Source of the DNA: Demequina sp. NBRC 110056
GTDB lineage: Bacteria > Actinomycetota > Actinomycetes > Actinomycetales > Demequinaceae
Reading direction: 5' to 3'
Assembly: GCF_002090155.1 (NCBI RefSeq)
Contig: NZ_BBRM01000006.1
Span: 186,001-250,000 of the forward strand
DNA length: 64,000 nucleotides
The notes beneath the pieces are model-generated. The model saw nothing but the letters and a program-made list of their open reading frames with translations, searched no databases and was not told where the DNA came from. The translations under genes and the position numbers were made by a program. Positions 2,585-64,000 of this stretch are shown piece by piece; the first letter of the stretch is position 1; every line of letters starts with the position of its first letter.

Positions 2585-4767
2585 GGTGAGGCGCTGGGTG
2601 AAGCGCTGGGTGAAGCGCTCGGTGAAGCCGATGCGCTCGCCGAGGGCGACACGCTCGCACCCGCCTCAGGCTGGACCTCGTTGACGTCCCCGTCGACGTC
2701 AGTGGGGGCCGATGCGCCCGTCGCCACCCGCGCCACCACCGGTAGGTGGTCGGACCAGCCCACGCCGTACGTCTCGAACGAGGTGAACTCGACTCCGCGG
2801 CCGAACAGGTGGTCGAGGGTGTCCGTCTCGAGCCCCGACGGGTCGTTGCCGAGGTAGGTCGGCGCGGGCACGTCGAGCACCTGCTGGGCGTCCGCGAAGC
2901 CCGCGGCCACGAGCGCGTCGACCACGGTGTCGGACGGCTCCGGCGCGAGCGACAGGCCCAGGACCAGGGGTTGGGGGCCGGACAACCAGTCGCTGAGCGC
3001 CTCGGCCTGACCGCCATCCTCGGCGATGGACGGGATGTGCGCGGTCGCGAAGGTCGCGCCCATGAAGTCCACGGCGACGGCGCTGCGGCTGACGCCGTCC
3101 TCGCTCGCGGGCAGCTCGAGCGTGCGCGGCTCGCCGAACGCGCGCGACGTGAGGATTGCGTTGCCGAGCTGCGGCTCGTGCGCGCCCGCATAGACGAAGG
3201 GCAGCCGCAGCTCGCCCGCGAGGTACTCGAGCATGTCGGTGCCGCCGGCGATGAGGAGGCCGCGGTCGACCTCCTGCAGCATGACGACGTCGGCGGCCGA
3301 TCCCCGCAGGGTCGCGTCGATCTCGTCGAGCGCGATCGAGGGCCCGCCCGTGACGCGCGGCTGGACGCCAGCGTGGAGGTTCCACGTCAGCGCCGTGGGC
3401 GCGATGAGGAAGTCCTTCGACAGGTTGCGCTCGGTCTCGTAGGTCGCGTGGGTCCAGAAGGCGAGACCCACGGCCACGATGATGCCGGTCGCCGCACCCA
3501 CGAGCACGCCTGGCGCGATCCACCCCTGCGGGACGCGCCCGCTCGAGGGGCTCGCGGAGACGGCCGATGCGCCCGCCGCCTGGTCCCGTGCGTTCACTTC
3601 CGCGGCGTCCTGGCCTGCGGGCGTGGGACCGCCCGTGTCGCCGGCGCCGCGCGCCGTCTCGTCGGGGGCGCTCTCCGCGGCGTTCGTGGTGGAGGCGGCG
3701 GCAGGCGAGGCGCCCGAGGTCCACGCGAACCACGCGGCTCCCGCGATCAGCGCCGCGCCGGCGAGCACGAACGGCACGGTCGTCGTCCCCGTCAGCCCGA
3801 GGCTCGAGTCGACGTGTGCCAGGAGAGGTGCCGCCACGATCGCCAGGCCGAACACGGTCGCTGCCCCCAGCCGGCGCATCGGCGAGCTGTCGGCCGGACG
3901 CAGGACGGCAGCGGCCGACAGGGCCGCCACGGCGGTGACGATCGGCAGCGACACGGCCGCGACGAGGCCGGGACGCAGCAGCAGGACGGCGAGCGCGGCG
4001 AGGCCGAGGACGGCGAGCACCGCGACCACCGTCCGAGACGTGCGGTGCACCTGCGCGGCGAGCACCGCGCCGGTCAGCAGCGACACGATCGCGAGCGCCG
4101 AGCCCGCGGACATGCGCACGTCGGCCTGGGCGTTGACCCACGCGACGTTCGCGAGGAGCGCGACCGTGAGGCCCCAGAACAGCCCGTACGCCCACCAGCC
4201 TCGGGAGGCGCCGACGGGCTCGAGGTCGCGGCACAGCCAGCCCATGAGCACCGCGAGCGCGGCGACGACGCCGAGCGCGACCCACCCAAGCAGGTCGAAG
4301 CGCCACACCGCGTCCCAGGTGCGCAGGACGGTCTGCTCCGCGACGGCGGCCGCCGCGCCCAGGGCGGTGCCGGCGACCGTCGGCCCCGCGCCGCCGTTGC
4401 CGAGCGCCATGCGAGCGGCGAGGACGACGGTGGTGAGGGCGAGCGCGAGCAGGTAGAGGCCGGCGTTGATGAGCCACAGGCCCTCGAGGAAGGGAAGGCC
4501 GATCCGGAGCACGCCCACGACGGCGAGCATGAACAGCAGCACCATCCCGGCGCCGAAGTGGCGGCCGGCGAGCGCACACAGCCATGCGAGCACGCCTCCG
4601 GCGGCGAACGCCGCGAGCGCCGCGAGAACGGCGAGCAGTCCGCTGTCGGCGGCAAGCCCCGACAGCAGCGGGCCGGCGCCCCTCACGGCGTCGATGAGCA
4701 GCCAGCTCGCGACGGCGACGAGTCCCAGCACGCGCCGCGCGGCGCTTCCCCCCTCGGACGTGTCCAT
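2566..4767 (-). CDS. Polytopic membrane protein with C-terminal endonuclease/exonuclease/phosphatase-like domain
   Basis: A 733-residue protein. After a short cytoplasmic start, about residues 15-480 hold roughly a dozen hydrophobic segments separated by a linker rich in Ala, Ser, Glu and Asp. The last 250 residues resemble the endonuclease/exonuclease/phosphatase fold: NLHAGV, MLQEVD, GNAILTSR, LDHLFGRG and SDHLPVVARV are recognisable. The Asp-x-Asn active-site motif expected near the middle (GDxNA) reads GLSLAPEP, so two key residues are replaced and catalysis is doubtful. The tail is a Pro-Ser-Ala repeat ending PSPSDG. The ATG at 4767 is used because upstream codons belong to the carboxylase gene. 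Function is unknown; cell-envelope lipid or nucleotide binding is possible. Confidence 0.75.
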   Translation of the reverse strand: MDTSEGGSAARRVLGLVAVASWLLIDAVRGAGPLLSGLAADSGLLAVLAALAAFAAGGVLAWLCALAGRHFGAGMVLLFMLAVVGVLRIGLPFLEGLWLINAGLYLLALALTTVVLAARMALGNGGAGPTVAGTALGAAAAVAEQTVLRTWDAVWRFDLLGWVALGVVAALAVLMGWLCRDLEPVGASRGWWAYGLFWGLTVALLANVAWVNAQADVRMSAGSALAIVSLLTGAVLAAQVHRTSRTVVAVLAVLGLAALAVLLLRPGLVAAVSLPIVTAVAALSAAAVLRPADSSPMRRLGAATVFGLAIVAAPLLAHVDSSLGLTGTTTVPFVLAGAALIAGAAWFAWTSGASPAAASTTNAAESAPDETARGAGDTGGPTPAGQDAAEVNARDQAAGASAVSASPSSGRVPQGWIAPGVLVGAATGIIVAVGLAFWTHATYETERNLSKDFLIAPTALTWNLHAGVQPRVTGGPSIALDEIDATLRGSAADVVMLQEVDRGLLIAGGTDMLEYLAGELRLPFVYAGAHEPQLGNAILTSRAFGEPRTLELPASEDGVSRSAVAVDFMGATFATAHIPSIAEDGGQAEALSDWLSGPQPLVLGLSLAPEPSDTVVDALVAAGFADAQQVLDVPAPTYLGNDPSGLETDTLDHLFGRGVEFTSFETYGVGWSDHLPVVARVATGASAPTDVDGDVNEVQPEAGASVSPSASASASPSASPSASPSASPSPSDG
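2572..2640. repeat. Short tandem repeats encoding a Pro-Ala-Ser tail
   Basis: Near-identical 12-base units of the type GGTGAAGCGCTG repeat about five times at the 3' end of the membrane-protein gene and encode the alternating Ser-Pro-Ser-Ala C-terminus. The block runs into the 17-bp repeat and contains one GCCGATGCG site at 2627. Confidence 0.75.
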
Positions 4768-4787
4768 GATCGACACCGTACCTGGGC

Positions 4788-6575
4788 TCAGGCGGGGTCG
4801 GCGATCTCGCAGATGACGGTGCCCGAGCTCACCGACGCGCCGACGGCGTGGTCGAGGCCGGTGATCGTCCCGGCCTTGTGGGCGACGAGCGGCTGCTCCA
4901 TCTTCATGGCCTCGAGGACGACGATGAGGTCGCCCTCGGCGACGGTCGCGCCGTCCTCGACCGCGATCTTCACGATCGTGCCCTGCATGGGGGAGGTCAG
5001 CGACGTGCCCGACGCGCCGCGAGCAGCGCCGCCGGTGCCGCGGCGAGCGCCGCGCTTCGTGGGCGCTCCGCGTCGCGCGCTCGCGCGTCCCGCCTGCGCC
5101 AAGGACGCGGGAAGGACGACCTCGAGGCGCTTGCCGCCGACCTCGACGACCACGCGCTCGGTGGGCTCGTACTCCGGTGCGGGGTCGGCACCCGCGCCGG
5201 CGCCACCCAGCTCGGCGACCGCATCGGCGAACTCGGACTCGATCCACGTGGTGTAGACGCCGAAGCGGCCGTGCGAGGCGGAGAACTCGGGGGCGTCGAG
5301 CACGGCGCGGTGGAACGGCAGCACCGTCGGGATGCCCTCGACCTCCATCTCCGCGAGAGCGCGGCGGGAGCGCTCGAGGGCCTGCTCGCGGGTCGCGCCG
5401 GTGACGATGACCTTGGCGATCATCGAGTCGAAGTTGCCCGACACGGTGTCGCCCTCGCGGACGCCGGCGTCGATGCGCACGCCGGGGCCGGTGGGGAAGC
5501 GCAGCGTGCGGATGGTGCCGGGGGCCGGCATGAAGTTCAGCGCGGGGTTCTCGCCGTTGATGCGGAACTCGAAGGAGTGGCCGCGCGTGACGGGCTCGAG
5601 CACGGAGATGGGCTCGCCGGCCGCGATGCGGAACTGCTCGCGCACGAGGTCGACGCCGGTGACCTCCTCGGTCACGGGGTGCTCGACCTGGAGGCGGGTG
5701 TTGACCTCGAGGAAGCTGATCGTGCCGTCGACGCCCACGAGGTACTCGCAGGTGCCCGCGCCCTCGTAGCCGGCCTCCGCGAGGATGGCCTGGCTCGCCT
5801 CGATCAGGCGACGGTTCTGGTCCTCGGTCAGGAACGGCGCGGGCGCCTCCTCGACCAGCTTCTGGTGGCGGCGCTGCAGCGAGCAGTCGCGCGTCGACAC
5901 CACCACGACGTTGCCGTGGCGGTCCGCGAGGCACTGAGTCTCGACGTGGCGGGGCTTGTCGAGGAAGCGTTCGACGAAGCACTCGCCGCGGCCGAAGGCG
6001 GCCACCGCCTCGCGCGTCGCGGAGTCGAACAGCTCGGGGATCTCCTCGCGGGTGCGGGCGACCTTGAGGCCGCGGCCGCCGCCGCCGAACGCCGCCTTGA
6101 TGGCGACGGGCAGGCCGTGCTCGTCGGCGAACGCGAGGACCTCGTCGGCGTTGGCCACGGGGTCCTTGGTGCCGGGGACCAGCGGGGCGCCGGCGCGCTG
6201 CGCGATGTGACGCGCGCTGACCTTGTCGCCGAGCGCGTCGATCGCCGCGGGAGAGGGGCCGATCCACGTGAGCCCGGCGTCGATGACGGCCTGCGCGAAC
6301 GCGGAGTTCTCCGCGAGGAAGCCGTAGCCCGGGTGCACCGACTGCGCGCCCGAGCGGCGGGCGACGTCGATGATCTTCTCGATGTCGAGGTAGGTCTCGG
6401 CGGCAGTCGATCCGCCGAGGGAGTAGGCCTCGTCCGCGAGGTGGACGTGCGGCGCGTCGCGGTCGGGCTCCGCGTAGACCGCGATCGAGCGCAGGCCGGC
6501 GTCGGCGCACGCACGGATCACGCGCACCGCGATCTCGCCGCGGTTGGCGATCAGGACGGAGGAGAAGGCAGACAC
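4788..6575 (-). CDS. Acyl-CoA carboxylase alpha subunit (biotin carboxylase plus biotin carrier)
   Basis: A 595-residue fusion typical of actinobacterial AccA/PccA. The N-terminal biotin carboxylase part shows [28 protein letters not shown], the ATP-grasp glycine loop [28 protein letters not shown] and RINGEN. A linker rich in Ala/Arg/Gly (about residues 495-520) joins it to the carrier domain, where EAMKMEQ carries the biotinylated Lys558. It carboxylates biotin with ATP and bicarbonate and works with a carboxyltransferase such as the beta/epsilon pair at 28404-30232. Biotin is attached by BirA (30266-31123). The GTG start at 6575 follows TACCGT by six bases and lacks a Shine-Dalgarno sequence, suggesting leaderless translation. 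Confidence 0.95.
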
Positions 6576-7402: not shown

Positions 7403-7525
7403 GGTCGCGAGCCTAACGGCCACGCGGCTGTCGCCACCGACCCGTCCCTCGCGATGCAGCTGGTCCCACTCTCGCTCCTGAGGAGAGCGCGCCGATGCGC
7501 GGGCGGCCTGCACGCGCCCGCCGGA

Positions 7526-7577: not shown

Positions 7578-8444
7578 CTACCCGGCGAGGTGCGGTGCGA
7601 CGGCGGAGGAGAAGGTCTCCGCGGTGCGGCGCGCGACCTCGTCGTACGGCGCGGACCAGACGTCCTGATTGAAGATCTCGACCTCGACGTCGCCGTCGTA
7701 GCCGGTGGCCTCGACGGCCTGAGTGAGCGAGGCGAAGTCGATGACGCCCTCGCCCATGTAGCGGCGGCCGAGCAGCACGTCGGCCGGCAACGGGGTCGCG
7801 AAGTCGCACACCTGGTAGGTCGCGATGCGGCCCTCTCGACCGGCGCGAGCGATCTGCTCGAGGACCTGCGGGTCCCAGAACACGTGGAACGTGTCGACGG
7901 TGACGCCCACGACGCTCGGGTCGAAGGGCGCGGCGAGGTCGAGCGCCTGGCCGAGCGTCGACACGACCGCGCGGTCGGTGGCGTACATGGGGTGCAGCGG
8001 CTCGATCGCCAGGGTGACCCCCGCGGAGGCCGCGTGGGGTGCCAGCTCGGCGAGCGCATCGGCCACCCGGGCGCGGGCGTCGACGATGTCTCGTGAGCCG
8101 TCGGGCAGCCCGCCCACGACCAGCACGAGGACAGGCTTCGAGCCGGGTGCGCCGGCAGCCGCGAGCCGTGCCGTCTCCTCGATCGCGACGATGTTGTCGG
8201 CGATGGACGCGCGACGCTCGGGGCCCTCGGGCACCGTGAAGAAGCCGCCGCGGCAGTGCGTCGAGACCCGCAGGCCGGACGCCTCGATCATCGACTCCGC
8301 GGTGTCGAGCCCGACGGCCTGGACGGGCTCGCGCCACGTGCCGAGGGCCTCGTAGCCGGCGCCGACGGCGGCGTCGATGGCCTCCGCGAGCGACGCCGTG
8401 CGGACGGTGGCCTGGTTGAGGGACAGGCGGGGGTGCGCGGCCAT
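7578..8444 (-). CDS. Sugar phosphate isomerase/epimerase-like TIM-barrel protein
   Basis: A 288-residue protein of the xylose-isomerase-like TIM-barrel superfamily (AP endonuclease 2 fold). Metal-binding features are spread over the barrel: STHCRGGFF, TLAIEPLHPMY (Glu), VTVDTFHVFWDP (Asp, His), TYQVCDFATP and EVEIFNQDVW (Glu near the C-terminus). The start ATG at 8444 overlaps the upstream DUF993 gene stop by four bases. The three leftward genes 7578-10811 form one operon of isomerase, aldolase-like and dehydrogenase genes. This composition suggests stepwise oxidation, isomerisation and cleavage of an unusual sugar. The exact substrate cannot be read from sequence. Confidence 0.85.
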   Translation of the reverse strand: MAAHPRLSLNQATVRTASLAEAIDAAVGAGYEALGTWREPVQAVGLDTAESMIEASGLRVSTHCRGGFFTVPEGPERRASIADNIVAIEETARLAAAGAPGSKPVLVLVVGGLPDGSRDIVDARARVADALAELAPHAASAGVTLAIEPLHPMYATDRAVVSTLGQALDLAAPFDPSVVGVTVDTFHVFWDPQVLEQIARAGREGRIATYQVCDFATPLPADVLLGRRYMGEGVIDFASLTQAVEATGYDGDVEVEIFNQDVWSAPYDEVARRTAETFSSAVAPHLAG

Positions 8445-9604
8445 CACGCCTCGATCCCATTGAGCGAGAGCATGCCGTGCCACCGCTCGAGCGCGAGCTC
8501 GGGCTTCTCGAGGGCGCCGCACGCGTTGGCGAGCTCGACGATGCGCGACAGGTGCGGGAGCGAGCGCGCGGAGTGGAGCCCGCCGACCATCTGGAACGCA
8601 TCCTGGTGCCCGTTGAGCCAGGCCATGAACGCGACGCCCGTCTTGTAGTAGAAGGTGGGCACCGCGAAGATCTGTCGGGACAGCTCCTCGGTGGGGCCCA
8701 GGATCGCGCGGTAGCCGTCGACGTCTCCCGCATCGAGCGCCTGGATGGCCCCCGAGGCGTGCGGGCCGAGCGCCGCGAACGCTCCGAGCAGCGCGTCCGA
8801 GTGGCCCTGCTCGTCGCCCTCGATGAGGGAGACGTAGTGGAAGTCGTCGCCGGTGAGCATGCGCGCCGAGTCGGGCAGGCGCCGCCGGACGGCGATCTCG
8901 GAGTCCGAGTTGAGCAGGCTCATCTTGACGCCCTGCACGGCCTGCGGGTTGGCCTCGATGATCGCGAGCAGCGTGTCGGAGGCGACGGCCCAGTCGTCGG
9001 ACCCGAAGTAGCCCGCGAGCTGCGGGTCGAAGGCGGTGCCGAGCCAGTGCAGCACGACGGGCTTGCCGGCGACGGACAGCACCTCGTCGTAGACGCGGCG
9101 ATAGTCGTCCGCGGTCTGCGCGGCGCGGGCGAGGTGACGGCTGGCCATGAGCACGGCGCCCGCGCCGGCGTCCTCGGCGTGGAACAGCTGCTCCTTGTAG
9201 GCGTCGATCACCTCGTCGAGAGAGATGACCTGGTCCTCGACGTGGTCGGTGTTGACGCCCACCACGAGCGCGCCACCGACGCGGTTCGCCTCAGCGGCCG
9301 AGCGCACGATCAGCTCGCGCGTGGCGGCGGCGTCGAGGCCCATGTTGCGCTGGGCGGTGTCCATCGCATCGGCCACGCCCAGGCCCCAGGAGTACAGGTG
9401 GTGGCGGTAGGCGAGCGTCGCGTCCCAGTCGATCTGCGCCGGGATGCCAGGGGTGTTGTCCGCGTGGGCGACCGGGACCACGTGCGCGGCCGCGTAGGCG
9501 ACGCGAGAGGTGAGCGGGCCGGTGGGCCGGGTGAGGGCCGATGCGGGGGCGAGGTCGACGCGTGACGTCGCCCCCGCATCGGACAGCAGGGTGAGCTGGG
9601 TCAC
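8444..9604 (-). CDS. DUF993 family protein, dihydrodipicolinate synthase-like aldolase
   Basis: A 386-residue protein recognised as DUF993, an actinobacterial family distantly related to dihydrodipicolinate synthase/N-acetylneuraminate lyase TIM barrels. Typical segments are IPAQIDWDATLAYRHHLYS, VVGVNTDHVED, VVLHWLGTAFDPQLAGYFGS, QGVKMSLLNSDSE, FHYVSLIEGDEQGHSDALLG and FYYKTGVAFMAWLNGHQ. The Lys in VKMSLL is at the place where a Schiff-base lysine would be expected. The GTG start is one base after the stop of the upstream Gfo/Idh gene. Activity is not established; carbon-carbon cleavage of a keto sugar or keto acid is inferred from fold and context. Confidence 0.85.
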   Translation of the reverse strand: MTQLTLLSDAGATSRVDLAPASALTRPTGPLTSRVAYAAAHVVPVAHADNTPGIPAQIDWDATLAYRHHLYSWGLGVADAMDTAQRNMGLDAAATRELIVRSAAEANRVGGALVVGVNTDHVEDQVISLDEVIDAYKEQLFHAEDAGAGAVLMASRHLARAAQTADDYRRVYDEVLSVAGKPVVLHWLGTAFDPQLAGYFGSDDWAVASDTLLAIIEANPQAVQGVKMSLLNSDSEIAVRRRLPDSARMLTGDDFHYVSLIEGDEQGHSDALLGAFAALGPHASGAIQALDAGDVDGYRAILGPTEELSRQIFAVPTFYYKTGVAFMAWLNGHQDAFQMVGGLHSARSLPHLSRIVELANACGALEKPELALERWHGMLSLNGIEA

Positions 9605-10811: not shown

Positions 10812-11162
10812 TGTGCCCTCACTTCTTGAGTCTCGCCCGCCGCCTCGTTGCCGCGGTGCTCCTACGTGTTTCGTCCGCGGGCTCCTCGCCCCGAACGGAA
10901 AGCGTTTACCGAGTGTAGGCAGAAGGTGAGTGCGCGCGCAAGCCCGGCCCGCGCATCGGCGCGTCGGGCACCGGGGATCCGTGAGCGCAGTTCTCACGTG
11001 CGGAGCCGCGTGCCGCGCGTGGGTGCTGGACCCGCCGAGCGGCGTGCGTCGCCGAACACAGGGAACTCTGGCGAAGGTGCCGGCGCGGCGCGCCGTGGAA
11101 CGCGCGGTGCCGGGAGATCTGCGAATCGTGCCCGCGGTTGCGATCGGGGACTGGGGGAGGGC
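10812..11162. other. 351-bp intergenic region with operator-controlled promoter
   Basis: Upstream region of the leftward Gfo/Idh gene, behind the lacI stop. It contains a leftward promoter (TTGCGC at 10936-10941, 18-base spacer, TACACT at 10912-10917), the operator GGAAAGCGTTTACC overlapping the start region, and one GCGCATCGGC motif at 10951-10960 just upstream of the -35. The remaining 200 bases show no ORF with coding character. Confidence 0.7.
10897..10941 (-). promoter_or_regulatory. Promoter and LacI-type operator of the leftward catabolic operon
   Basis: Reading leftward: TTGCGC, 18 bases, TACACT, then GGTAAACGCTTTCC, so the operator would cover the transcription start. The operator matches the GGATAGCGCTTTCC sites at 12397-12410, 12429-12442 and 15428-15441, with GGAWAGCG/CGCTTTCC half sites. 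Repression by the neighbouring LacI protein with release by a sugar ligand is inferred. Confidence 0.7.
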
Positions 11163-12509: not shown

Positions 12510-13463
12510 GTGACCCCCGACCGCGCCGTGATCGCCGAGGACCGCGGTGACCGCATCGTCCTCACGGCGGGCGAGAGAGAGCTCGCCCACTACGTCTACC
12601 GACCGACCGACGTCCGCCTCGAGTCCCCGCGGCCGTACCTGAGCCCGATCCACACGCTCGGCGGGTCCCTCGTCTCGCTGTTCCGGCCGCACGACCACGT
12701 GTGGCACAAGGGCATCGCGTGGTCGCTTCCCGTCGTCGGCGACGAGAACTTCTGGGGCGGTCCCACCTTCGTCCGCGGCGACGGCTACGTGCAGCTGCCC
12801 AACAACGGCGAGCAGCGCCACGACGCCTTCGCGCTCGACCACGCCGAAGGAACCGCGACGCTGTCCGAGACGCTCACGTGGGTCACGGAGGCCGGCGAGC
12901 ACGTGTTCGACGAGCGCCGCACGCTCACCGCACGGATCGTCGACGCCGAGACCTGGGAGCTGGGATTCGAGACCCGGATGACCTCGACGACGGACCGCGT
13001 CCTGTCCATCGGCTCGCCGACCACGCGCGGCCGCGACAACGCGGGCTACGGCGGGCTGTTCTGGCGCGGCCCGCGGTCCTTCACGGGAGGCACGATCGTG
13101 GCGCCCGATGCGGAGGGCGGCGACGAGCTGCGCGGGACGCGCGCGCCGTGGATGGGGTTCCGCGGCGTCCACGACGGCGACGGCGCCGTGTCCACGGTGG
13201 TCATGGCCGACCACCCCGCCAACGTGGCGCACCCGCCGCAGTGGTTCGCGCGCACCGAGGACTTCGCGTGCCTGTGCCCCGCGCCCTTCTTCTCGGAGGA
13301 GCGCCCGGTCGCGCCCGGCGAGACGCTGCACGAGCGCTACCTCGTCCTCGTCCACGACGGCGGCTGGAGCAGCGCCGATGCGGGCGCGGCCGTCGCTCGC
13401 TCGCTCGCTTCCGGCACGGGGTCGGTTGACGTCGTGTCGAGCGCCGATGCGGGTCGAGCGTGA
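12510..13463 (+). CDS. DUF6807 (PmoA-like) family protein
   Basis: A 317-residue protein of the family often labelled PmoA, a name inherited from a wrong link to methane monooxygenase. The fold is beta-rich and resembles carbohydrate mutarotase domains. Characteristic stretches are RPYLSPIHTLGGSLVS, RPHDHVWHKGIAWSLPVV, NFWGGPTFVRG, GYGGLFWRGPRSFTGG and APWMGFRG; the clustered His and Trp residues look like a sugar or metal site. GTG at 12510 is chosen because AAGGAG precedes it by nine bases. An ATG at 12444 in the same frame abuts the operator and has no ribosome site. First gene of the rightward operon; overlaps the cupin gene by four bases. Confidence 0.85.
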   Translation: MTPDRAVIAEDRGDRIVLTAGERELAHYVYRPTDVRLESPRPYLSPIHTLGGSLVSLFRPHDHVWHKGIAWSLPVVGDENFWGGPTFVRGDGYVQLPNNGEQRHDAFALDHAEGTATLSETLTWVTEAGEHVFDERRTLTARIVDAETWELGFETRMTSTTDRVLSIGSPTTRGRDNAGYGGLFWRGPRSFTGGTIVAPDAEGGDELRGTRAPWMGFRGVHDGDGAVSTVVMADHPANVAHPPQWFARTEDFACLCPAPFFSEERPVAPGETLHERYLVLVHDGGWSSADAGAAVARSLASGTGSVDVVSSADAGRA

Positions 13464-19474: not shown

Positions 19475-19565
19475 CCCGGCCGGCGCATCGGCGCTGCTCG
19501 GGGCGGGTGGCACCACCCACGGAACCACGACGGCGCGGCTTCTGACGGCCGCGCGAAGGAGAGGC

Positions 19566-26207: not shown

Positions 26208-26267
26208 GCGCCGATGCGCGGGCTGGGTCCCAGCCCCGCCGCACCGGCGGCGACGGGAAGGGTCGGC

Positions 26268-35321: not shown

Positions 35322-35372
35322 CGGCCGCGAGGTGACGGGCGTGCCCGGCCGCGCGCGCATCGGCCCTTCTCC
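35322..35372. repeat. Direct repeat, right copy, upstream of tadA
   Basis: A stretch of about 50 bases beginning CGGCCGCGAGGTGACGGGCG and ending ATCGGCCCTTCTC, the same orientation as the copy at 34186-34233. It ends 46 bases before the tadA start. Confidence 0.8.
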
Positions 35373-49278: not shown

Positions 49279-50208
49279 ATGTCGGTCCCCACCGTCTCCA
49301 CCTCCTCCCCGACCAGCAGCGCCGATGCGCTCGCCCAGGACGCCGCCGACGTCCCGGGCGGCGCGTGCATCGGAGAGGGTGCTGGGTCTCCCGCGCCCGT
49401 CGCCTCGGCGGCGCCCAGCGTGGCGGCGCCCTCGCTCGATCGCGCCGACGCCGACCTCCGGGAGAGCCTGCGCTCGCCCGGTGAGTCCGCATCGGTCCAC
49501 TCGTGGGAGCTGGTCACGGCGGTCGACGGACCCGGCACGCGCCTGACGTTCTTCCTCGCGGGCTGCCCGCTGCGGTGCCTGTACTGCCACAACCCCGACA
49601 CCTGGCAGATGCGCCGGGGCGAGCGTCAGAGCCTCGACGAGGTCGTGAGCCGCATCCGCAGGTACGCGCAGGTGCTGCGCACCACGGGCGGCGGCGTGAC
49701 GATCTCCGGCGGCGAGCCGCTGCTCCAGCCGCAGTTCGTGGAGAACGTCTTCGCGGCCTGCCAGGAGATGGGCGTCCACACGGCGCTCGACACCTCGGGA
49801 TTCCTCGGGGCGCGCGCCACCAACCGGCTGCTGTCGAACACGAACCTCGTGCTCCTCGACGTGAAGAGCGGCGACCCCGACACCTACAAGACGGTCACCG
49901 GTCGCTCCCTCGCCCCGACGCTCGACTTCGGGCGGCGGCTCGCGGCACAGGACATCCCGATCTGGGTGCGCTTCGTCGTGGTGCCGGACCTCACGGACGA
50001 CGAGGACAACGTCGAGAAGGCCGCGGAGTACATCGCGTCGCTGCGCTCCGTGCAGCGCGTGGAGGTGCTGCCGTTCCACCAGATGGGTCGCGACAAGTGG
50101 CGCGCCCTCGGCGAGGACTACGCGCTCGAGAACACCGAGCCGCCGAGCGCCGAGCTGGTCGCCCGCGTGCGGCGTCAGTTCGCCCGCAGGGGCCTCATCG
50201 CCTTCTAG
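49279..50208 (+). CDS. pflA: Pyruvate formate-lyase activating enzyme with N-terminal extension
   Basis: A 309-residue radical SAM enzyme that installs the glycyl radical on PflB. The iron-sulfur cluster cysteines are Cys96, Cys100 and Cys103 in GCPLRCLYCHNPDTW. The SAM-binding motif GGGVTISGGEPLLQP follows, then LLDVKSGDPDTYK and VRFVVVPDLTDDEDN. PflA proteins are usually near 245 residues; this one has about 65 extra at the N-terminus, rich in Ala, Ser and Pro and without clear fold. AGGAG precedes the ATG at 49279, which supports that start; no good internal start with a ribosome site was found. Confidence 0.95.
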   Translation: MSVPTVSTSSPTSSADALAQDAADVPGGACIGEGAGSPAPVASAAPSVAAPSLDRADADLRESLRSPGESASVHSWELVTAVDGPGTRLTFFLAGCPLRCLYCHNPDTWQMRRGERQSLDEVVSRIRRYAQVLRTTGGGVTISGGEPLLQPQFVENVFAACQEMGVHTALDTSGFLGARATNRLLSNTNLVLLDVKSGDPDTYKTVTGRSLAPTLDFGRRLAAQDIPIWVRFVVVPDLTDDEDNVEKAAEYIASLRSVQRVEVLPFHQMGRDKWRALGEDYALENTEPPSAELVARVRRQFARRGLIAF

Positions 50209-50510
50209 CGGCCCTGCGCGGTCCCAGTGTGGGTCTGCCCCCTCCACGGGCCGCTGCCACGGGTGATGACACGGGTGCTGCCACGTGCGCTGCCATGCCA
50301 GCCCGCGCATCGGCCCTCACGGCGCCGGGCGCGCACCGCGGGGGCCGTCGCCACGCAGACCCCTCGCCGCGCACACCCCTCGCTCAAGGTGCCCGGCCGC
50401 TGCGTGGGCCCTAGGTCCCCGGGACCTCGGCCTCAGGAACGGTGCCGCCGCCAGGCATACGGTCGAATCAGAGGCCACAGCAGTGGCCAGACCCAGAGGA
50501 GAGAACTGCC
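50209..50510 (+). other. 302-bp adhE upstream region
   Basis: Contains short direct repeats of CTGCCACG/GCTGCCA between 50253 and 50300, the motif GCGCATCGGC at 50305-50314, and a leader hairpin GGCCAC-AGCA-GTGGCC at 50473-50488 just ahead of the ribosome site GGAGAG. No firm -35/-10 pair was found; TACGGT at about 50457 is a weak -10 candidate. No gene. Confidence 0.5.
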
Positions 50511-53237
50511 ATGACCGCCACCGAGGCCGCCCCGGCCACCGTCACCGAGCCGTCCATCGCCGAGGAGATCGACCGCCTCGTCGCGAACGCGCAGAAGGCG
50601 CTCGACGCCTACTCGGCCTTCACGCAGGATGACGTCGACCTGCTCGTCAAGAAGGCCTCCGTCGCGGCCCTCAACCAGCACGGTGACCTCGCCGTCAAGG
50701 CGGTCGAGGAGACCGGCCGCGGCGTGTTCGAGGACAAGGCCGTGAAGAACATCTTCGCGTGCGAGCACGTCACCCACTCGATGGCCCCGATGAAGACCGT
50801 GGGCGTCATCAACGAGGACCCGATCCTCGGGATCACCGAGATCGCGGAGCCCGTCGGCGTCGTCTGCGGCGTCACCCCGGTCACCAACCCGACCTCGACC
50901 GCGATCTTCAAGTCGCTCGTCGCGCTCAAGACCCGCAACCCGATCATCTTCGCGTTCCACCCGAGCGCCCAGCAGTCGTCCGTCGCCGCCGCCCGCATCG
51001 TGCGCGACGCCGCGGTCGCCGCGGGCGCCCCCGAGAACTGCATCCAGTGGGTGGAGCACCCCTCGATCGAGGCGACCAACACCCTGATGAACCACGACGG
51101 CGTCGCGCTGATCCTCGCGACCGGCGGCAACGCGATGGTGAAGGCGGCCTACAGCTGCGGCAAGCCCGCGCTCGGCGTCGGCGCGGGCAACGTGCCCGCC
51201 TACGTCCACCAGTCGGCCAACCTCAAGCGCGCCGTCAACGACATCGTCATCTCGAAGGCGTTCGACAACGGCATGGTGTGCGCCTCCGAGCAGGCCGTGA
51301 TCCTCGACGAGGTCATCTACGACGAGGCGCTCGCCGAGTTCGACCGCCTCCACGCCTACCGCGTGACCGCCGAGGAGAAGGCCAAGCTCGAGGAGTTCAT
51401 CTTCGGCGTCACGGCCGACGGCGAGAACTGCGCCGGCGCCAAGCTCAACCCGAACGTCGTGGGCAAGTCCCCCCAGTGGATCGCCGAGCAGGCGGGCTTC
51501 GAGGTCCCCGAGGAGGTCTCGATCATCCTGGCCGAGGTCTCCGAGGTGGGCGAGTCCGAGCCGCTCACCCGCGAGAAGCTGTGCCCGGTGCTGGCCGTCC
51601 TCAAGGCCGAGTCCACCGAGCAGGGCCTGCTCATGGCCGAGCAGATGGTCGAGTTCCACGGCCTGGGCCACTCCGCCGCGATCCACGCGACCGACCAGGA
51701 CCTCATCCAGGAGTTCGGCCGTCGCGTCAAGGCGATCCGCGTCATCACCAACTCGCCCTCGAGCCAGGGCGGGATCGGCGACATCTACAACGCCTTCCTG
51801 CCGTCGCTGACGCTCGGCTGCGGCTCCTACGGCCACAACTCGGTGAGCAACAACGTGACCGCAGTGAACCTCATCAACGTCAAGCGCATCGGCCGGAGGA
51901 ACAACAACATGCAGTGGTTCAAGGTGCCGTCCAAGACGTACTTCGAGCCCAACGCGATCCAGTACCTGCGCGACATGGAGGGCGTCGAGCGCGTCACCAT
52001 CATCACCGACGCGACCATGACCCGCATCGGCATCGTCGACAAGGTCCTCGACGTGCTGAACCGCCGCGGCAACAACGTGTCGGTGCAGATCATCGACAAC
52101 GTCGAGCCCGAGCCGTCGGTCCAGACCGTCAAGAAGGGCGCCGAGGTGCTGCGCGCCTTCAAGCCCGACACCCTGATCGCGGTGGGCGGCGGCTCGCCGA
52201 TGGACGCCGCGAAGGTGATGTGGCTGCTGTACGAGCACCCCGAGGTGGACTTCGCCGACCTCAAGGAGAAGTTCTTCGACGTCCGCAAGCGCGCCTTCCG
52301 CTTCCCGAAGCTGGGCGAGCTCGCCAAGTTGGTCTGCATCCCGACCACGTCGGGCACAGGCTCGGAGGTGACGCCGTTCGCGGTGATCTCCGACCCCGAG
52401 ACCGGCCGCAAGTACCCGCTCGCCGACTACGCGCTCACGCCGACCGTCGCGATCACGGACCCCGTCCTGACCGCGCAGCTGCCGGCACGCGTCGCCGCCG
52501 ACTCGGGCTTCGACGCCCTGACCCACGCCACCGAGGCCTACGTCTCCGTGTACGCGAACGACTTCACCGACGGCATGGCCCTGCAGGCCATCCGCCTGGT
52601 CTTCGAGAACATCGAGGAGTCGGTCACCGTGGGCGGCAAGGCGGAGAAGGCGCGCGAGAAGATGCACAACGCGGCGACCATCGCGGGCATGGCCTTCGGC
52701 AACGCCTTCCTGGGCCTGGTGCACGCGATGAGCCACGTCACCGGCTCGACGTTCCACGTCGCGCACGGTCGCACCAACGCCATCTACCTGCCGCACGTGA
52801 TCCGCTACAACGGCAAGGTCCCGACCAAGCCCACCTCGTGGCCCAAGCAGGAGTCCTACGTGGCTCCCGAGCGCTACCAGGAGATCGCGAAGATGCTGGG
52901 CCTGCCCCACAGCACCCCGGACGAGGCGGTCGAGGCCTACGCGTCCGCCGTCGAGGAGCTGCGCGACAAGGTGGGCATCGAGCGGTCCTTCCAGCAGGTG
53001 GGCGTCGAGGAGGCGGACTTCATCGGCTCGCTCGACACCCTCGCCATGAACGCCTACGAGGACCAGTGCGCGCCCGCGAACCCGCGGCTGCCGATGCTGG
53101 CCGACATGAAGGTGATGATGGAGGCCGCGTACTACGGCGTCCGCTACGAGGACATCAGGAACCGTGCGGTGAAGGCGGAGGCCCCCGCGGCCAAGCCCGC
53201 CGCCAAGACCTCGCGCGCCAAGAAGGCCGCGAAGTAG
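50511..53237 (+). CDS. adhE: Bifunctional acetaldehyde-CoA/alcohol dehydrogenase
   Basis: A 908-residue fusion enzyme that reduces acetyl-CoA through acetaldehyde to ethanol and regenerates NAD. The aldehyde dehydrogenase half (about 1-440) has VGVVCGVTPVTNPTSTAIFK and the catalytic Cys257 in NGMVCASEQAV. The iron-dependent alcohol dehydrogenase half has AVGGGSPMDAAKVMW, PTTSGTGSEVTPFAV, and metal ligands in DALTHATEAYVS and HAMSHVTGSTFHVAHG. The tail is Ala/Lys-rich. AdhE normally forms filaments (spirosomes). GGAGAG precedes the ATG at 50511. With PflB it gives the mixed-acid branch acetyl-CoA to ethanol. Confidence 0.97.
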   Translation: MTATEAAPATVTEPSIAEEIDRLVANAQKALDAYSAFTQDDVDLLVKKASVAALNQHGDLAVKAVEETGRGVFEDKAVKNIFACEHVTHSMAPMKTVGVINEDPILGITEIAEPVGVVCGVTPVTNPTSTAIFKSLVALKTRNPIIFAFHPSAQQSSVAAARIVRDAAVAAGAPENCIQWVEHPSIEATNTLMNHDGVALILATGGNAMVKAAYSCGKPALGVGAGNVPAYVHQSANLKRAVNDIVISKAFDNGMVCASEQAVILDEVIYDEALAEFDRLHAYRVTAEEKAKLEEFIFGVTADGENCAGAKLNPNVVGKSPQWIAEQAGFEVPEEVSIILAEVSEVGESEPLTREKLCPVLAVLKAESTEQGLLMAEQMVEFHGLGHSAAIHATDQDLIQEFGRRVKAIRVITNSPSSQGGIGDIYNAFLPSLTLGCGSYGHNSVSNNVTAVNLINVKRIGRRNNNMQWFKVPSKTYFEPNAIQYLRDMEGVERVTIITDATMTRIGIVDKVLDVLNRRGNNVSVQIIDNVEPEPSVQTVKKGAEVLRAFKPDTLIAVGGGSPMDAAKVMWLLYEHPEVDFADLKEKFFDVRKRAFRFPKLGELAKLVCIPTTSGTGSEVTPFAVISDPETGRKYPLADYALTPTVAITDPVLTAQLPARVAADSGFDALTHATEAYVSVYANDFTDGMALQAIRLVFENIEESVTVGGKAEKAREKMHNAATIAGMAFGNAFLGLVHAMSHVTGSTFHVAHGRTNAIYLPHVIRYNGKVPTKPTSWPKQESYVAPERYQEIAKMLGLPHSTPDEAVEAYASAVEELRDKVGIERSFQQVGVEEADFIGSLDTLAMNAYEDQCAPANPRLPMLADMKVMMEAAYYGVRYEDIRNRAVKAEAPAAKPAAKTSRAKKAAK

Positions 53238-54570: not shown

Positions 54571-54858
54571 TCAGGATAGGGGCGGCACGGGCGGCGACGC
54601 GCCGAGCCGCGAGCGGTGTCGCGTCGCTCGTCGCGGCGCCTGCCTCATGTCTGGAGCGCCGATGCGCACGGCGGTGGCGACGTCGGCCTCGGCGCCAGCC
54701 GTTCGAGCCGTTGGCACGAGCGCGCGGAGGGCGTCCTCGGTGCAGGGGGCAAGCCGCCAGGGTCGATCGGTGGAGTGTGATTCCGGGGTGTTGAGCCCGC
54801 TGCGCGCCAGCCTGCGGGTGGGGATGATGCCGGCGATGCCGAGCTGCACGGTGTCCAT
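54571..54858 (-). CDS. Unrecognised 95-residue ORF, possible gene remnant
   Basis: A small leftward frame starting MDTVQLGIAGIIPTRRLA with GAGGAGG six bases before the ATG. The first 25 codons have the local G/C-ending bias; later codons (CGA, TCA, CTT, CTA) do not, and the end is Arg/Pro-rich (RHRSRLGASPPVPPLS). I do not recognise it. It ends 11 bases before the LacI gene and stands behind the promoter at 54911-54950. Options are a real small leader protein, or a truncated gene whose promoter now serves the regulator. It contains a GCCGATGCG motif at 54658. Confidence 0.35.
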   Translation of the reverse strand: MDTVQLGIAGIIPTRRLARSGLNTPESHSTDRPWRLAPCTEDALRALVPTARTAGAEADVATAVRIGAPDMRQAPRRATRHRSRLGASPPVPPLS

Positions 54859-55033: not shown

Positions 55034-56419
55034 TCAGTGCCCGCCGGTGAGGGGAGCCATGGCGCGCGCGAGCAGCGAGGATCGCCGGGTGAGCCGCTCC
55101 TCGCCGTCGGCGAGCCGCATGGTCGTCAGCCCGGCGTTGACGCCGAGCCAGCGCAGCGGCTCGGGCTCCCAGGCGTGTGAGCGGTGACCGACCCACGGGA
55201 GCGCGGTGAGCTCGGTGTCCTGCCCCAGGATGAGGTCGCGCAGCGTCCGGCCGGCGAGGTTCGTGGTGGTGACGCCGTCGCCCACGTAGCCGCCCGCCCA
55301 GGCGAGGCCCGTGTCGCTGTCGAGGCCGACCGAGGCCTCCCAGTCCCGAGCGATCCCCAGGGCGCCGCCCCAGCGGTGGGTGATGCGCGCATCGGCGAGG
55401 CTGGGGAAGAGCTCGACGAGGGTGTCCTGGAGGAGCCGGAACACCGTGGCGTCGGAGTCGAACCGCGGGTGCGTCGCCGAGCCGAAGTGGTACGGCGCGC
55501 CGCGCCCGCCGAAGACCATGCGCCCGTCCGCGGTGCGCTGGCCGTAGATGATGAGGTGGCGGTAGTCGCTGAACGTCTCGCGTTCCGCGAGGCCGATGCG
55601 CTCCCAGACCTGGTCGGACAGTGGCTCGGTGGCGATCATCAGCGAGTACACCGGGGCGACGGCGCGCTCGTAGCCGGGCAGCCCGGCCGTGTAGCCCTCG
55701 GTCGCGCGCACGACGACGTCGGCGGTGACGGTTCCTCCCGGCGTCGTCACGCGGTGGGGCTCGAGGGCGGTGACCTCGGTGCCCTCGTACAGCGTGACTC
55801 CCGCGTCCTGGACGCCGCGGGCGAGGGCGCGCGCGAGGGCGGCGGGATGGATGGCGGCGCAGTCCGGCGTGTACGTGCCGCCGAGCACGTCGGTGGCGGC
55901 GAGCCGCGCCCGCGCCTGGTCGGCGTCGAGGAGCCTGACCTGCTCCTCGCCCAGCCCGAGCGCGTGCTCTCCCGCGACGTCGGCGCGTGCGCGCTCGAGC
56001 TGCACGGGCGTGCGCGCGAGCGTGACGGTCCCGCCCTTGGCGATGAGGTGGCCGACGCCCAGCTCGCGGCCGCGTGCGACCACCTCGTCGACGGAGGCCC
56101 GCATGGCGGCGTCTTGGGCGAGGGCCGCCTCGGGTCCGTGGTCGTGGGCGACGGACGCGAGCGACATGGGCAGCAGCGCGGAGGCCCAGCCGCCGTTGCG
56201 CCCCGAGGCGCCGAACCCCGCGAACTCCTTCTCGAGGACGACGATGCTCAGGTCAGGGCGTGCCTGGGCGAGATACCAGGCCGTCCACAGCCCGGTGTAG
56301 CCGGCGCCGACGATAGCGACGTCCGCGGTGACGTCCCGCGACAGGGGCGCGGCCGGCTCGAGGCCGGCGAGGGACTCGGGCAGCGTCGCGAGCCACAGTG
56401 ACGGTGGCGGCGCCGTCAC
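55034..56419 (-). CDS. FAD-dependent amine/amino-acid oxidoreductase (DAO family, PuuB-like)
   Basis: A 461-residue flavoprotein of the D-amino-acid oxidase fold. The FAD motif DVAIVGAGYTGLWTAWYLA is at about residues 34-52, followed by FGASGRNGGWASALLP, the signature of gamma-glutamylputrescine oxidase-like enzymes. GGRGAPYHFGS, HRWGGALGIARDW and GYVGDGVTTTNLAGRTLRDLILG complete the flavin site. It probably oxidises an amine such as putrescine or a glutamylated form. The GTG at 56419 overlaps the Lrp gene stop (GTGA). The polyamine importer starts on the other side of the Lrp gene. Confidence 0.88.
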   Translation of the reverse strand: MTAPPPSLWLATLPESLAGLEPAAPLSRDVTADVAIVGAGYTGLWTAWYLAQARPDLSIVVLEKEFAGFGASGRNGGWASALLPMSLASVAHDHGPEAALAQDAAMRASVDEVVARGRELGVGHLIAKGGTVTLARTPVQLERARADVAGEHALGLGEEQVRLLDADQARARLAATDVLGGTYTPDCAAIHPAALARALARGVQDAGVTLYEGTEVTALEPHRVTTPGGTVTADVVVRATEGYTAGLPGYERAVAPVYSLMIATEPLSDQVWERIGLAERETFSDYRHLIIYGQRTADGRMVFGGRGAPYHFGSATHPRFDSDATVFRLLQDTLVELFPSLADARITHRWGGALGIARDWEASVGLDSDTGLAWAGGYVGDGVTTTNLAGRTLRDLILGQDTELTALPWVGHRSHAWEPEPLRWLGVNAGLTTMRLADGEERLTRRSSLLARAMAPLTGGH

Positions 56420-58336: not shown

Positions 58337-59471
58337 CGGTCGCACTCGCGACCTCCGCCTGGCGGGGCTGCACAAGCAGTACCCGAACGGCTTCGCCGCG
58401 GTCCAGTCCCTCGACCTCGAGATTCCGCAGGGATCGTTCTTCGCGCTGCTGGGCCCCTCGGGCTGCGGCAAGACCACGACGCTGCGGATGGTCGCCGGGC
58501 TGGAGGTGCCGACCGCCGGCACGATCCACATCGGTGACCAGGACATCACCCACGAGAAGCCGTACAAGCGCCCCGTCAACACCGTGTTCCAGAACTACGC
58601 GCTGTTCCCGCACCTGACGATCGCGGAGAACGTCGAGTTCGGCCCGCGTCGTCGGGGCGAGAAGGACGTCTCCGCGCAGGCGAAGGAGATCCTCGAGCTC
58701 ACCGAGCTGACCGAGCAGGCGTCCAAGAAGCCGGCGCAGCTGTCGGGTGGGCAGCAGCAGCGCGTCGCCCTCGCGCGCGCGCTCATCAACCGGCCCGAGG
58801 TGCTGCTCCTCGACGAGCCGCTGGGGGCGCTCGACCTCAAGCTCCGCCGCGCGATGCAGATCGAGCTCAAGCGCATCCAGGAGGAGGTGGGCCTCACCTT
58901 CGTGCACGTCACGCACGACCAGGAGGAGGCCATGACGATGGCGGACACCGTGGCCGTCATGAACCTCGGCGTCATCGAGCAGATGGGCACCCCCTACGAG
59001 CTCTACACGAACCCGCGCACCACCTTCGTCGCGAACTTCCTGGGCCGCTCGAACCTCATCAAGGGCACCGTGCTGGGCAGGGAAGGCTCGGGGGCCGATG
59101 CGGTCGTCAAGGTCGACATGCACGGCACCGTCGTCACGATCAGCGCGGCGCGCGTGCACACCGAGTCGTCCGAGGGCTGGGTGGGCATCCGTCCCGAGAA
59201 GGTGCTGATCCAGCCGGAGGGCACGCCCATTGACGCGCCCGGCGACCACTTCTCGGGCGCGGTCGTGACCGGCTCGAGCTACATCGGCGTCTCCACGGAG
59301 TACGAGCTGCTCATGCCGTGGGGCCAGGAGATCACCTGCTTCGAGCAGAACACCGGACGCCGCGGCGGCCTCGTGCCCGTCGGCACGCGCGTGGACGTGT
59401 CGTGGAGGCCCGAGTTCGCGTTCCTCCTCGACTCGTCGCAGGACGCCGAGGCCGGGATCCAGGAGACCTGA
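58323..59471 (+). CDS. potA: Spermidine/putrescine ABC transporter ATP-binding protein
   Basis: A 382-residue ATPase. Walker A is GPSGCGKTT (Lys50), the Q-loop is NTVFQNYALFPHL, the signature LSGGQQQRVALARAL, Walker B VLLLDEPLGALD and the switch His in VHVTHDQEEAMTM. The C-terminal TOBE domain contains GWVGIRPEKVLIQPEG and SSYIGVSTEYELL. It energises the importer with PotB, PotC and PotD and could in principle not serve the sugar importers, whose ATPase is missing here. Confidence 0.96.
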   Translation: MSLADGRTRDLRLAGLHKQYPNGFAAVQSLDLEIPQGSFFALLGPSGCGKTTTLRMVAGLEVPTAGTIHIGDQDITHEKPYKRPVNTVFQNYALFPHLTIAENVEFGPRRRGEKDVSAQAKEILELTELTEQASKKPAQLSGGQQQRVALARALINRPEVLLLDEPLGALDLKLRRAMQIELKRIQEEVGLTFVHVTHDQEEAMTMADTVAVMNLGVIEQMGTPYELYTNPRTTFVANFLGRSNLIKGTVLGREGSGADAVVKVDMHGTVVTISAARVHTESSEGWVGIRPEKVLIQPEGTPIDAPGDHFSGAVVTGSSYIGVSTEYELLMPWGQEITCFEQNTGRRGGLVPVGTRVDVSWRPEFAFLLDSSQDAEAGIQET

Positions 59472-61350: not shown

Positions 61351-61399
61351 GCGTGAGAGGGGCCGGGGCGCCGATGCGCGCGCCGGGTCGGTCGGCGTC

Positions 61400-62800: not shown

Positions 62801-62934
62801 GGCCCCTCGCGCCGCAACTGATCCGTCTGTAGTATGGCTCCTAGACAACGAAAAACGCTGTTTCGGCCGTGTTTCTACAACAGAAACCGTGGCAGTATGG
62901 CGATGTTGGCGCTTGCACCAGAGAGGGGAGCCAC
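62801..62934. promoter_or_regulatory. Divergent region between aminotransferase and FAD oxidoreductase genes
   Basis: GTTTCTACAACAGAAAC at 62870-62886 is an inverted repeat with six-base arms and a five-base centre; GTTTCGGCC and further GTTTC/GAAAC strings lie beside it. TAGTAT at 62832-62837 is a possible -10. A shared operator for polyamine catabolism is likely. Confidence 0.6.
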
Positions 62935-64000
62935 GTGGTCGCGACGGTCTTCGAGCGGCTCGCGCCGCCCGAGGCGGACGTCCGCGCCGCGCTCGCCCCC
63001 GCAGTACCGGGCTCCGGGTGGATGGCCGGGGTCGAGGCGCCGTCGTTCCCACCGCTGACCGAGGACGTCTCGGCCGATCTCGTGATCGTCGGCGCGGGGT
63101 ACAGCGGCCTGTGGACCGCGATCCTCGCGAAGGAGCGCGACCCCCACCGCAGCGTCGTCGTCCTCGAGGGGGCGCGGATCGGCTGGGCGGCGTCCGGCCG
63201 CAACGGCGGGTTCTGCGAGCCGAGCCTCACGCACGGTCACGAGAACGGGCTCGCGCGCTGGCCCGACGAGATCGCGACGCTGGAGGCCATGGGCCGCGCG
63301 AACCTCGACGAGATCGAGAGCACCGTCGAGCGCTACGGCATGGACGCGCACTTCGAGCGCACCGGCTCGCTGACGGTGGCCGTCGAGCCCCACCAGCTCG
63401 CCTGGCTCGGCGAGGGCGCGCTGGACGCGGCTCAGGTGCGAACGCGGGTTGACTCGCCCACCTACCTCGGGGGCGAGCTCGACCCCGACTCCGCGCTCGT
63501 CCATCCCTACCGGTTGGCCGTCGAGCTCGCGCGCGTGGCGACCGAGCTGGGGGTCGTGATCCACGAGCGCACACCGGTCGAGCGCATCGGCGCTCACGAG
63601 GTGATCGCGCGGCCGCGGCACGCCCCGGGCGGCGCCACACGGCGCGGCCGGCCGCGTCCCGTCGCGCCCGCGCCCGGCGCAGGCGGATCTCCCGCCGGGC
63701 AACCGCTCACCGAGCGCTCGGGCGCCGCGCGATCGAGCACCGCACGTTCAGAGACGTCACGGTCCGGCTCAGGGGCTGCCAGCACGGTCACCGTCCGTGC
63801 CGGACGCATCGCGCTCGCGACCAACGCCTTCCGCTCCCTGCTGCGGCGCAACGCCCTCATGACGGTGCCGGTCTACGACTACGTGCTGATGACCGAGCCG
63901 CTGACCGACGCGCAGCTGGCGAGCGTCGGCTGGGAGGGCCGCGAGGGCGTGGGCGACATGGCCAACCAGTTCCACTACTACCGGCTGACGCGCGACAACC
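62935..64000 (+). CDS. FAD-dependent amine oxidoreductase (PuuB-like) with in-frame low-complexity insertion, 3' end missing
   Basis: The frame is open from GTG at 62935 to the window end (355 codons). GGGGAG lies five bases before the start. SADLVIVGAGYSGLWTAILAK is the FAD motif and WAASGRNGGFCEPSLTHGHENG the substrate-side signature shared with the gene at 55034-56419. HYYRLTRDN at the window end leads into the next flavin segment. Between residues about 226 and 284 a Pro/Arg/Ser/Ala-rich stretch (PVAPAPGAGGSPAG, RSSTARSETSRSGSG) is inserted where the paralogue has only a few residues. Its codons include TCA, CGA, GCA, TCT and CAA, rare elsewhere. The flanks align normally and the frame is kept. 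Confidence 0.88.
   Translation, partial: MVATVFERLAPPEADVRAALAPAVPGSGWMAGVEAPSFPPLTEDVSADLVIVGAGYSGLWTAILAKERDPHRSVVVLEGARIGWAASGRNGGFCEPSLTHGHENGLARWPDEIATLEAMGRANLDEIESTVERYGMDAHFERTGSLTVAVEPHQLAWLGEGALDAAQVRTRVDSPTYLGGELDPDSALVHPYRLAVELARVATELGVVIHERTPVERIGAHEVIARPRHAPGGATRRGRPRPVAPAPGAGGSPAGQPLTERSGAARSSTARSETSRSGSGAASTVTVRAGRIALATNAFRSLLRRNALMTVPVYDYVLMTEPLTDAQLASVGWEGREGVGDMANQFHYYRLTRDN

Follow-up and report, generated by a model that had tools for sequence, protein, structure and literature searches.

A dispersed nine-base word with clade-specific dialects in Demequina genomes and its possible role in DNA uptake

Here we describe the distribution of a nine-base DNA word, GCCGATGCG, in a stretch of 64,000 nucleotides of Demequina sp. 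NBRC 110056 (contig NZ_BBRM01000006.1, positions 186,001 to 250,000; hereafter the window) and in the genomes of its relatives, and we discuss whether it may be the core of a DNA uptake sequence. The window holds 45 exact copies, 23 on the plus and 22 on the minus strand, the first at 2627 and the last at 63583-63591. In 100 dinucleotide shuffles the mean was 3.6 and the maximum 10, and the strong over-representation for which the first-pass annotation had counted 44 copies by eye is thereby confirmed. Under an order-3 Markov model GCCGATGCG is the top over-represented 9-mer of the window (45 against 4.05 expected). Twelve of the 45 copies lie between genes according to our own gene calls, made with no curated annotation. 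All copies are given below by position in the window and strand; each is an exact match to GCCGATGCG, and the status of those marked as intergenic comes from the gene calls in addition.

2627..2635, plus strand, copy
2708..2716, plus strand, copy
3563..3571, plus strand, copy
3875..3883, minus strand, copy
5220..5228, minus strand, copy
7491..7499, plus strand, copy called intergenic
8055..8063, minus strand, copy
9365..9373, minus strand, copy
9537..9545, plus strand, copy
10952..10960, minus strand, copy called intergenic
13374..13382, plus strand, copy
13443..13451, plus strand, copy
19484..19492, minus strand, copy called intergenic
20715..20723, plus strand, copy
21312..21320, plus strand, copy
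22385..22393, plus strand, copy
22662..22670, minus strand, copy
22829..22837, minus strand, copy
26210..26218, plus strand, copy called intergenic
27826..27834, plus strand, copy
28288..28296, minus strand, copy with a close inverted partner at 28319
28319..28327, plus strand, copy with a close inverted partner at 28288
31348..31356, minus strand, copy
31842..31850, plus strand, copy
32008..32016, minus strand, copy
33858..33866, minus strand, copy
34220..34228, minus strand, copy called intergenic
35356..35364, minus strand, copy called intergenic
39044..39052, plus strand, copy called intergenic
40073..40081, minus strand, copy called intergenic
42072..42080, plus strand, copy
44361..44369, plus strand, copy
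44406..44414, plus strand, copy
46865..46873, minus strand, copy called intergenic (this hinges on where the following gene is taken to start)
47016..47024, minus strand, copy
49321..49329, plus strand, copy
50306..50314, minus strand, copy called intergenic
51885..51893, minus strand, copy
52023..52031, minus strand, copy
54658..54666, plus strand, copy called intergenic
55388..55396, minus strand, copy
55592..55600, plus strand, copy
59094..59102, plus strand, copy
61370..61378, plus strand, copy called intergenic
63583..63591, minus strand, copy

Scans of the window for tRNA genes and Rfam families gave no matches.

In the whole genome of the strain (G000; 2,937,786 bases, 10 contigs) the word occurs 1,861 times, which is one copy per 1.58 kb, and its reversed-letter control gives 56 and 66 copies. 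The orientation is balanced (930 forward, 931 reverse), and the earlier argument from orientation against a polar signal holds genome-wide. Further statistics were taken from 484 kb of this genome, made up of the window and 420 kb of contig C2, in which 290 copies were observed against 33.7 expected at Markov order 3, an excess of 8.6 times. The expectation is 52.2 at order 4, 101.9 at order 5 and 189.9 at order 6, so that models of order 4-6, whose agreement with the count would have been a refutation by the first-pass annotation, do not predict it even when trained on the same sequence. At order 7 it comes to 268.5, and the expectations of orders 6 and 7 lie near the observed number because the training sequence contains GCCGATGCG itself. 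The 27 one-base neighbours of the word number 719 together against about 617 expected at order 3 (~1.2 times), and most of them are near background, so they are not as over-represented as the word itself (290 against 34). Enriched neighbours, by 1.8 to 2.8 times (observed/expected), are GCCGATGCC (73/26), GACGATGCG (56/27), GCCGATGAG (46/22) and GCGGATGCG (33/19), the first two of which are the words of other dialects of the family; GCCAATGCG (3/0.7) is too small a count for judgement and GCCGATGCT is at expectation (21/20). In length and density the word is as uptake sequences are, which have 9-12 bp and occur about once per 1-2 kb, far above expectation.

Our gene calls over the 484 kb come from a simple home-made finder based on codon usage, and their starts are approximate. 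Intergenic sequence (51.6 kb) holds 81 copies of the word and coding sequence (432.4 kb) 209, with an odds ratio of 3.25 (P 3e-16), which bears out the higher density between genes that had been remarked before. Called genes flank 80 of the 81 intergenic copies on both sides, and the gaps are tandem in 29, convergent in 27 and divergent in 24 cases; being found in all three types, the intergenic copies are not simply terminators or promoters. A terminator role was rejected on the same counts and on the rarity of inverted pairs. Among the 208 copies lying within one gene, 106 run along the gene and 102 opposite to it. The word bends the codons in different readings: given the proteins, codon usage predicts 5.3 occurrences of GCC GAT GCG where 98 were observed, 2.5 of the antisense reading NNC GCA TCG GCN where 42 were observed, and 31.9 of CGC ATC GGC where 54 were observed. 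These counts place the cause at DNA and not at protein, and the excess of GCCGATGCG acts at the DNA level. The unusual use of GAT noticed earlier is part of the same picture, as GAT makes up 8.6% of Asp codons overall and 130 of 299 in Ala-Asp-Ala. In our strain the word thus has no strand preference, lies in coding and intergenic DNA and is denser between genes, as expected of an uptake sequence.

The intergenic copies share a longer consensus, AGSGCCGATGCGCGSGCYGG, of about 20 bp, with roughly G.AGS on the 5′ side and CGSGCYGGS on the 3′ side of the core (69 of the 81 copies had enough flank), and it stops about 9 bp past the core. The extended consensus proposed earlier therefore stands for the intergenic copies, and the flanks are weaker when all copies are taken.

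The distribution over the family was surveyed in 47 genomes, of which 44 belong to Demequina. The genus is placed by the pyruvate formate-lyase gene of D. oxidasica NBRC 106264 (L021), which matches G017, a member of the same genus as the window, at 100% over 2,220 of 2,220 bases and the corresponding gene of the window at 82%. Whole-genome counts of GCCGATGCG range from 26 to 1,861; densities per kb rest on rounded genome sizes. Dialect A, with GCCGATGCG at 0.56-0.66/kb by whole-genome counts, is found in six genomes (G000, G001, G002, G016, G028 and G041), in which the word of dialect B, GACGATGCG, reaches only 0.10-0.12/kb. In 15 genomes GACGATGCG stands at 0.43-0.68/kb by the same kind of count, and in 12 genomes dialect C (GGCCGATGCY) is represented by GGCCGATGCC or GGCCGATGCT at 0.18-0.47/kb. 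Other top words, from 60 kb each, are GCCCGACGCTG in G037, CGCCGACGCTG in G034 and GGACGATGCC in G023, and 22 kb of Demequina sp. SYSU T00192 (L002) contain 15 copies of the B word. Dispersed 9-mers were also ranked by over-representation in 45 of the 47 genomes (samples of 7 to 420 kb; G035 and G036 left out), and the top dispersed 9-mer holds CGATGC or CGACGC in 35 of the 45. The ten others comprise G006 and G041, whose whole genomes are rich in the B and the A word respectively, G033, G045 and G046, each with a sample under 15 kb, and G004, G027, G039, G043 and G044, where no CGATGC or CGACGC word was on top in the samples. Genomes are mostly rich in a single word. Clade-specific dialects around a shared core, by which uptake sequences are recognised, are therefore present, with some genomes mixed or wordless.

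A FastTree tree was built from six proteins near comEC for 38 genomes; of the 47, seven were never included, and G011 and G041 were dropped for missing data. Its topology, given here without support values, unites the five A genomes in one clade, and seven C genomes make up the adjoining one; three further C genomes (G003, G017 and G032) branch lower. Dialect B falls into two groups, one in which G021 and G029 share a clade with the wordless G004, G043 and G027, and one that is a large clade including G023. Outside the family the A word reaches a density of at most about 0.13/kb (229 of the 248 genomes of the order, from a table read by us); the survey of the order covered the A word alone, and other words elsewhere are possible. 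A word seen in Georgenia satyanarayanai (L045) was rejected as a local tandem repeat, not a dispersed tag, and the words of Kineosporia L047 and Paenibacillus L066 are also mostly local tandem repeats. The Georgenia repeats lie at L045:3707-4740, contain AGTCGGCTG with a period of 18 or 36 and are found on both strands.

The fate of the copies in coding sequence was followed at orthologous sites in the genes around comEC, the comparison of A genomes with each other (A-A) using seven genomes. Sites of the A word keep it in 74 of 154 cases in other A genomes (149 gap-free, 5 with a gap); set against B genomes, 409 of 435 are gap-free and 74 hold the A word and 9 the B word. Sites are thus not carried over when the dialect changes, and the change looks like turnover. 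Within the five A genomes of the tree GCCGATGCG is kept in 74 of 133 cases against 54 of 390 for its one-base neighbours, 24.2% for NNNGATNNN words and 19.7% for all 9-mers; the conservation of positions in relatives, which had been suggested as a check, is thus seen for this dialect. In dialect B 312 of 822 cases (38.0%) retain the word, against 411 of 1,545 (26.6%) for neighbours and 34.4% for NNNGATNNN words. These comparisons share branches and are not independent, hence no P value is given; upkeep of the word is clear in dialect A and slight in dialect B.

Genes for natural transformation are widespread in the family, comEC, dprA and N-methyl prepilins each being found in 46 of the 47 genomes. 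The Pfam examination of comEA and of the pilus operon was made in our own strain. Here comEA (SLBB and helix-hairpin-helix) adjoins comEC (with a metallo-beta-lactamase domain), and a putative type IVa pilus operon on contig C2 has two T2SSE ATPases, which are read as pilB and pilT, T2SSF (pilC), prepilins, a prepilin peptidase and PilM; its candidate pilN and pilO are named from position alone. A solo prepilin lies at G000:C7:175141. At the gene level a natural transformation apparatus of pilus, ComEA/ComEC and DprA is thus predicted.

Taken together, we consider GCCGATGCG to be the core of the DNA uptake sequence of a Demequina species with a probability of roughly 0.65; competence, sequence-specific uptake, the receptor and the drive are the parts that we infer. 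It is also rather probable, with a little less assurance, that sequence-specific self-DNA uptake has evolved here for a third time, separately from the two Gram-negative families Neisseriaceae and Pasteurellaceae, in monoderm Actinomycetota (Demequina), by means of a type IVa pilus and in three to five dialects at least. A peaked, strand-neutral word that acts at the DNA level and is as dense as known uptake sequences, its dialects around one core, and a set of transformation genes that includes a pilus make up a pattern like that described for the Neisseriaceae (PMC3630211). Among the candidates of the first-pass annotation an uptake-like sequence is therefore favoured, through the dialects and the pilus and com genes, and a small mobile repeat is disfavoured by the gap data given below.

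The proposed mechanism may be outlined as follows. Some DNA-binding part, either in the type IVa pilus or among the com proteins, would prefer double-stranded DNA with GCCGATGCG, PilT would retract the pilus, ComEA and ComEC would bring one strand into the cell, and DprA and RecA would recombine it. Fragments bearing the word would be taken up and recombined more often, so mutations to the perfect word could spread and would be kept where protein constraint permits. If the preference of the receptor shifted in a lineage, the genome would drift to a new word, giving dialects around the CGAYGC core. Such an uptake bias with recombination would lead to copies on both strands every ~1.6 kb, an intergenic excess and synonymous sites bent to the word.

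The DNA uptake sequence (DUS) of Neisseriaceae is the closest known system. In the sections of PMC3630211 drawn on here, N. meningitidis and N. gonorrhoeae have about 1,900 DUS per 2.2-2.3 Mb genome, close to the 1,861 copies found here, and the DUS is likewise a short non-palindromic word in coding and intergenic DNA, with clade-specific dialects and a shared core. The same sections describe 'peregrine' DUS in Neisseria, words of other dialects present as a minority, to which GCCGATGCC and GACGATGCG correspond in our strain. The Demequina word differs in sequence and in its host, a monoderm actinobacterium in which no ComP was identified. Close inverted pairs are many in Neisseria, whereas the 484 kb of Demequina sequence have 7 neighbouring pairs (<40 bp), and 4 of these are inverted; the wealth of inverted terminator pairs that typifies DUS, without defining them, is thus not seen.

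The uptake signal sequence (USS) of Pasteurellaceae has a longer degenerate flank beyond its core, as has the Demequina word. It also has a 9-bp core and exists in two versions, by the sections drawn on here (PMC3630211). The two differ in sequence, in the GC-rich flank of the Demequina word and in the unrelated organism; in the portions of a 2025 paper used here (PMC12616744) the minor pilin ComN is predicted as USS receptor. The same portions state that sequence-tagged uptake is known from just two families. Micrococcus luteus, an actinobacterium, transforms through Flp pili (PMC6370729), and the passages of that review used here make no mention of uptake words in it. In the literature searched, which misses most subscription papers, none of the listed titles and abstract openings tells of an uptake sequence from Actinomycetota, the search on Demequina being a weak test; among the listed papers that contain the letters of GCCGATGCG, no title concerns an over-represented word.

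Several observations weigh against an uptake sequence. The one-base variants exceed the word in sum (719 against 290), as they also do in Neisseria by the published sections used here. In G016 the leading strand has slightly more copies than the lagging one, 134 to 107 over 20 of the 21 windows (P 0.09; one window was set aside, its skew being at odds with its place) or 137/114 in all 21 (P 0.16). Some genomes mix their words, G018 having the A word at 0.30/kb and the B word at 0.44/kb, and G011 and G031 being rich in both A and C words. In 22 kb of D. oxidasica (L021) no clear word was found; a D. oxidasica genome (G017) has the C word at 0.185/kb by whole-genome count. G004, G027 and G043 have no dialect word among their top words (60 kb each), and over their whole genomes the three words sought are few; the first 20 kb of G027 hold GCCCGACGC 11 times against 2.0 expected, and in these three genomes either the specificity was lost or the dialect was not recognised. 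They still carry comEC, dprA and prepilins, so that the word and the gene set do not strictly go together. Of 14 control genomes, 10 have a match for comEC, 11 for dprA and 8 for prepilins, so carrying these genes does not by itself prove uptake and just makes such a reading possible. The upkeep of the B word is weak when set against NNNGATNNN words, and in small samples not every dialect has a clear intergenic excess (ratio 0.7 for GCCGATGCC and 1.0 for GCCGACGCT). No copy lies in the 12.8 kb that run from pilT through the rest of the pilus operon into the genes beyond it (L262:6794-19565, G000:C2 about 382793-395564), where 7.7 were expected (P 5e-4, for a single stretch chosen post hoc). 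A motif of our own picked out solo pilins in 10 of the 16 loci fetched; all ten have an acidic pI, of 4.1-5.9, so that they do not look like DNA receptors, and the idea of a solo pilin as uptake receptor found no support.

Next in rank, and unlikely, is that the word is the site of an abundant chromosomal protein or modification enzyme, such as a nucleoid protein, a methylase or a HIP1-like system, whose specificity shifts between species. The spread over all sampled sequence, on both strands and with near-random gaps (coefficient of variation 1.12 over the whole sampled sequence), would suit such a site, and over-represented words without known function do exist: HIP1 of cyanobacteria is a very frequent short word, in coding sequence too, as is the Demequina word. 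HIP1 is, however, a palindrome, and we know of no dialect series of HIP1 comparable to that of Demequina. Protein sites usually tolerate variants, whereas most one-base variants of GCCGATGCG are at background; restriction sites are usually avoided rather than enriched, and the word is long and non-palindromic. A methylation or nucleoid-protein site, a candidate of the first-pass annotation, does not alone account for species words around a shared core.

A shade less likely still is a Chi-like site that regulates a helicase-nuclease of AddAB/AdnAB type, with a recognition that diverged between species. The slight leading-strand excess in G016 would agree with it, but Chi of E. coli is strongly oriented, and the leading share in G016 is 55-56% and the strands of our strain are balanced. 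RecC was found in 0 of the 47 family genomes; AddAB/AdnAB were not searched for. Chi too is over-represented and species-specific, by the sections drawn on here (PMC3630211); the Demequina word is longer, and neither its intergenic consensus of ~20 bp nor its concentration between genes is needed by Chi.

A small mobile or repetitive extragenic palindrome (REP)-like repeat that inserts copies is very improbable. The extended intergenic consensus and some close pairs could speak for it, as could the gaps at word sites, which are about twice as frequent as at random sites of the same genes in comparisons of A sites with B genomes (6.0 against 2.9%), B with A (14.1 against 7.1%) and B with B (9.3 against 4.4%). 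Within A the figures are 3.2% and 3.0%, and in the four comparison sets between 86 and 97% of the word sites aligned in coding sequence lack a gap, so arrival by insertion, the mark of such repeats, is not the pattern seen; the copies in coding sequence arose mostly in place. The excess gaps also fit words in loosely constrained stretches of protein, which is how we read them, and some copies may have arrived in inserted stretches; the consensus, moreover, ends about 9 bp past the core. It is hardly credible that codon usage, composition or mutation bias, e.g. C to T at GCCGACGCG, produced the word as a side effect: G or C fills seven of its nine bases and Markov orders 6-7 come near the count, but codon usage and composition are ruled out as cause by the 98 against 5.3 and by the Markov counts, intergenic copies are denser still, GCCGACGCG is undepleted (85 against 89.8 expected) and the preferred word differs between related clades.

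Other features were noted on the way. A second over-represented word of the window is the palindrome ATCGCGAT, with 22 against 3.8 counting both strands, i.e. 11 sites; ATCGCGATG is over-represented in the samples of G004 (16 against 2.0), and CCACTGGTA in L146 (G037) and L137 (G025), with 7 and 6 copies per 20 kb where <=0.1 is expected. The longest word-free stretch of the sampled sequence of our strain, 14.3 kb at G000:C2 about 203866-218199, has genes of a branched-chain-type ABC transporter and of acyl-CoA metabolism (translations judged by eye) and was possibly acquired. As marks of acquired DNA word-free stretches gave a mixed result and were not retained, since this one is transport and catabolic and others hold respiratory and glycolytic genes by the same inspection. 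At 44177-53237 of the window a pyruvate formate-lyase and an AdhE-like fusion lie beside a GH2 gene (Pfam; the gene between the first two was unscanned), a set which suggests a fermentative sugar degrader.

If GCCGATGCG and its dialects are indeed uptake sequences, they would add a third case, of independent origin, in a genus of high-G+C Gram-positive bacteria of which dozens of species are sequenced, and the watermarking of own DNA would be a trait that evolves repeatedly, including in cells without an outer membrane. The genus would then offer a natural dialect series for the study of molecular drive, of receptor co-evolution and of species barriers at the level of DNA, and the dialects could limit gene exchange between species. 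The word would also give a hint for transforming Demequina in the laboratory.

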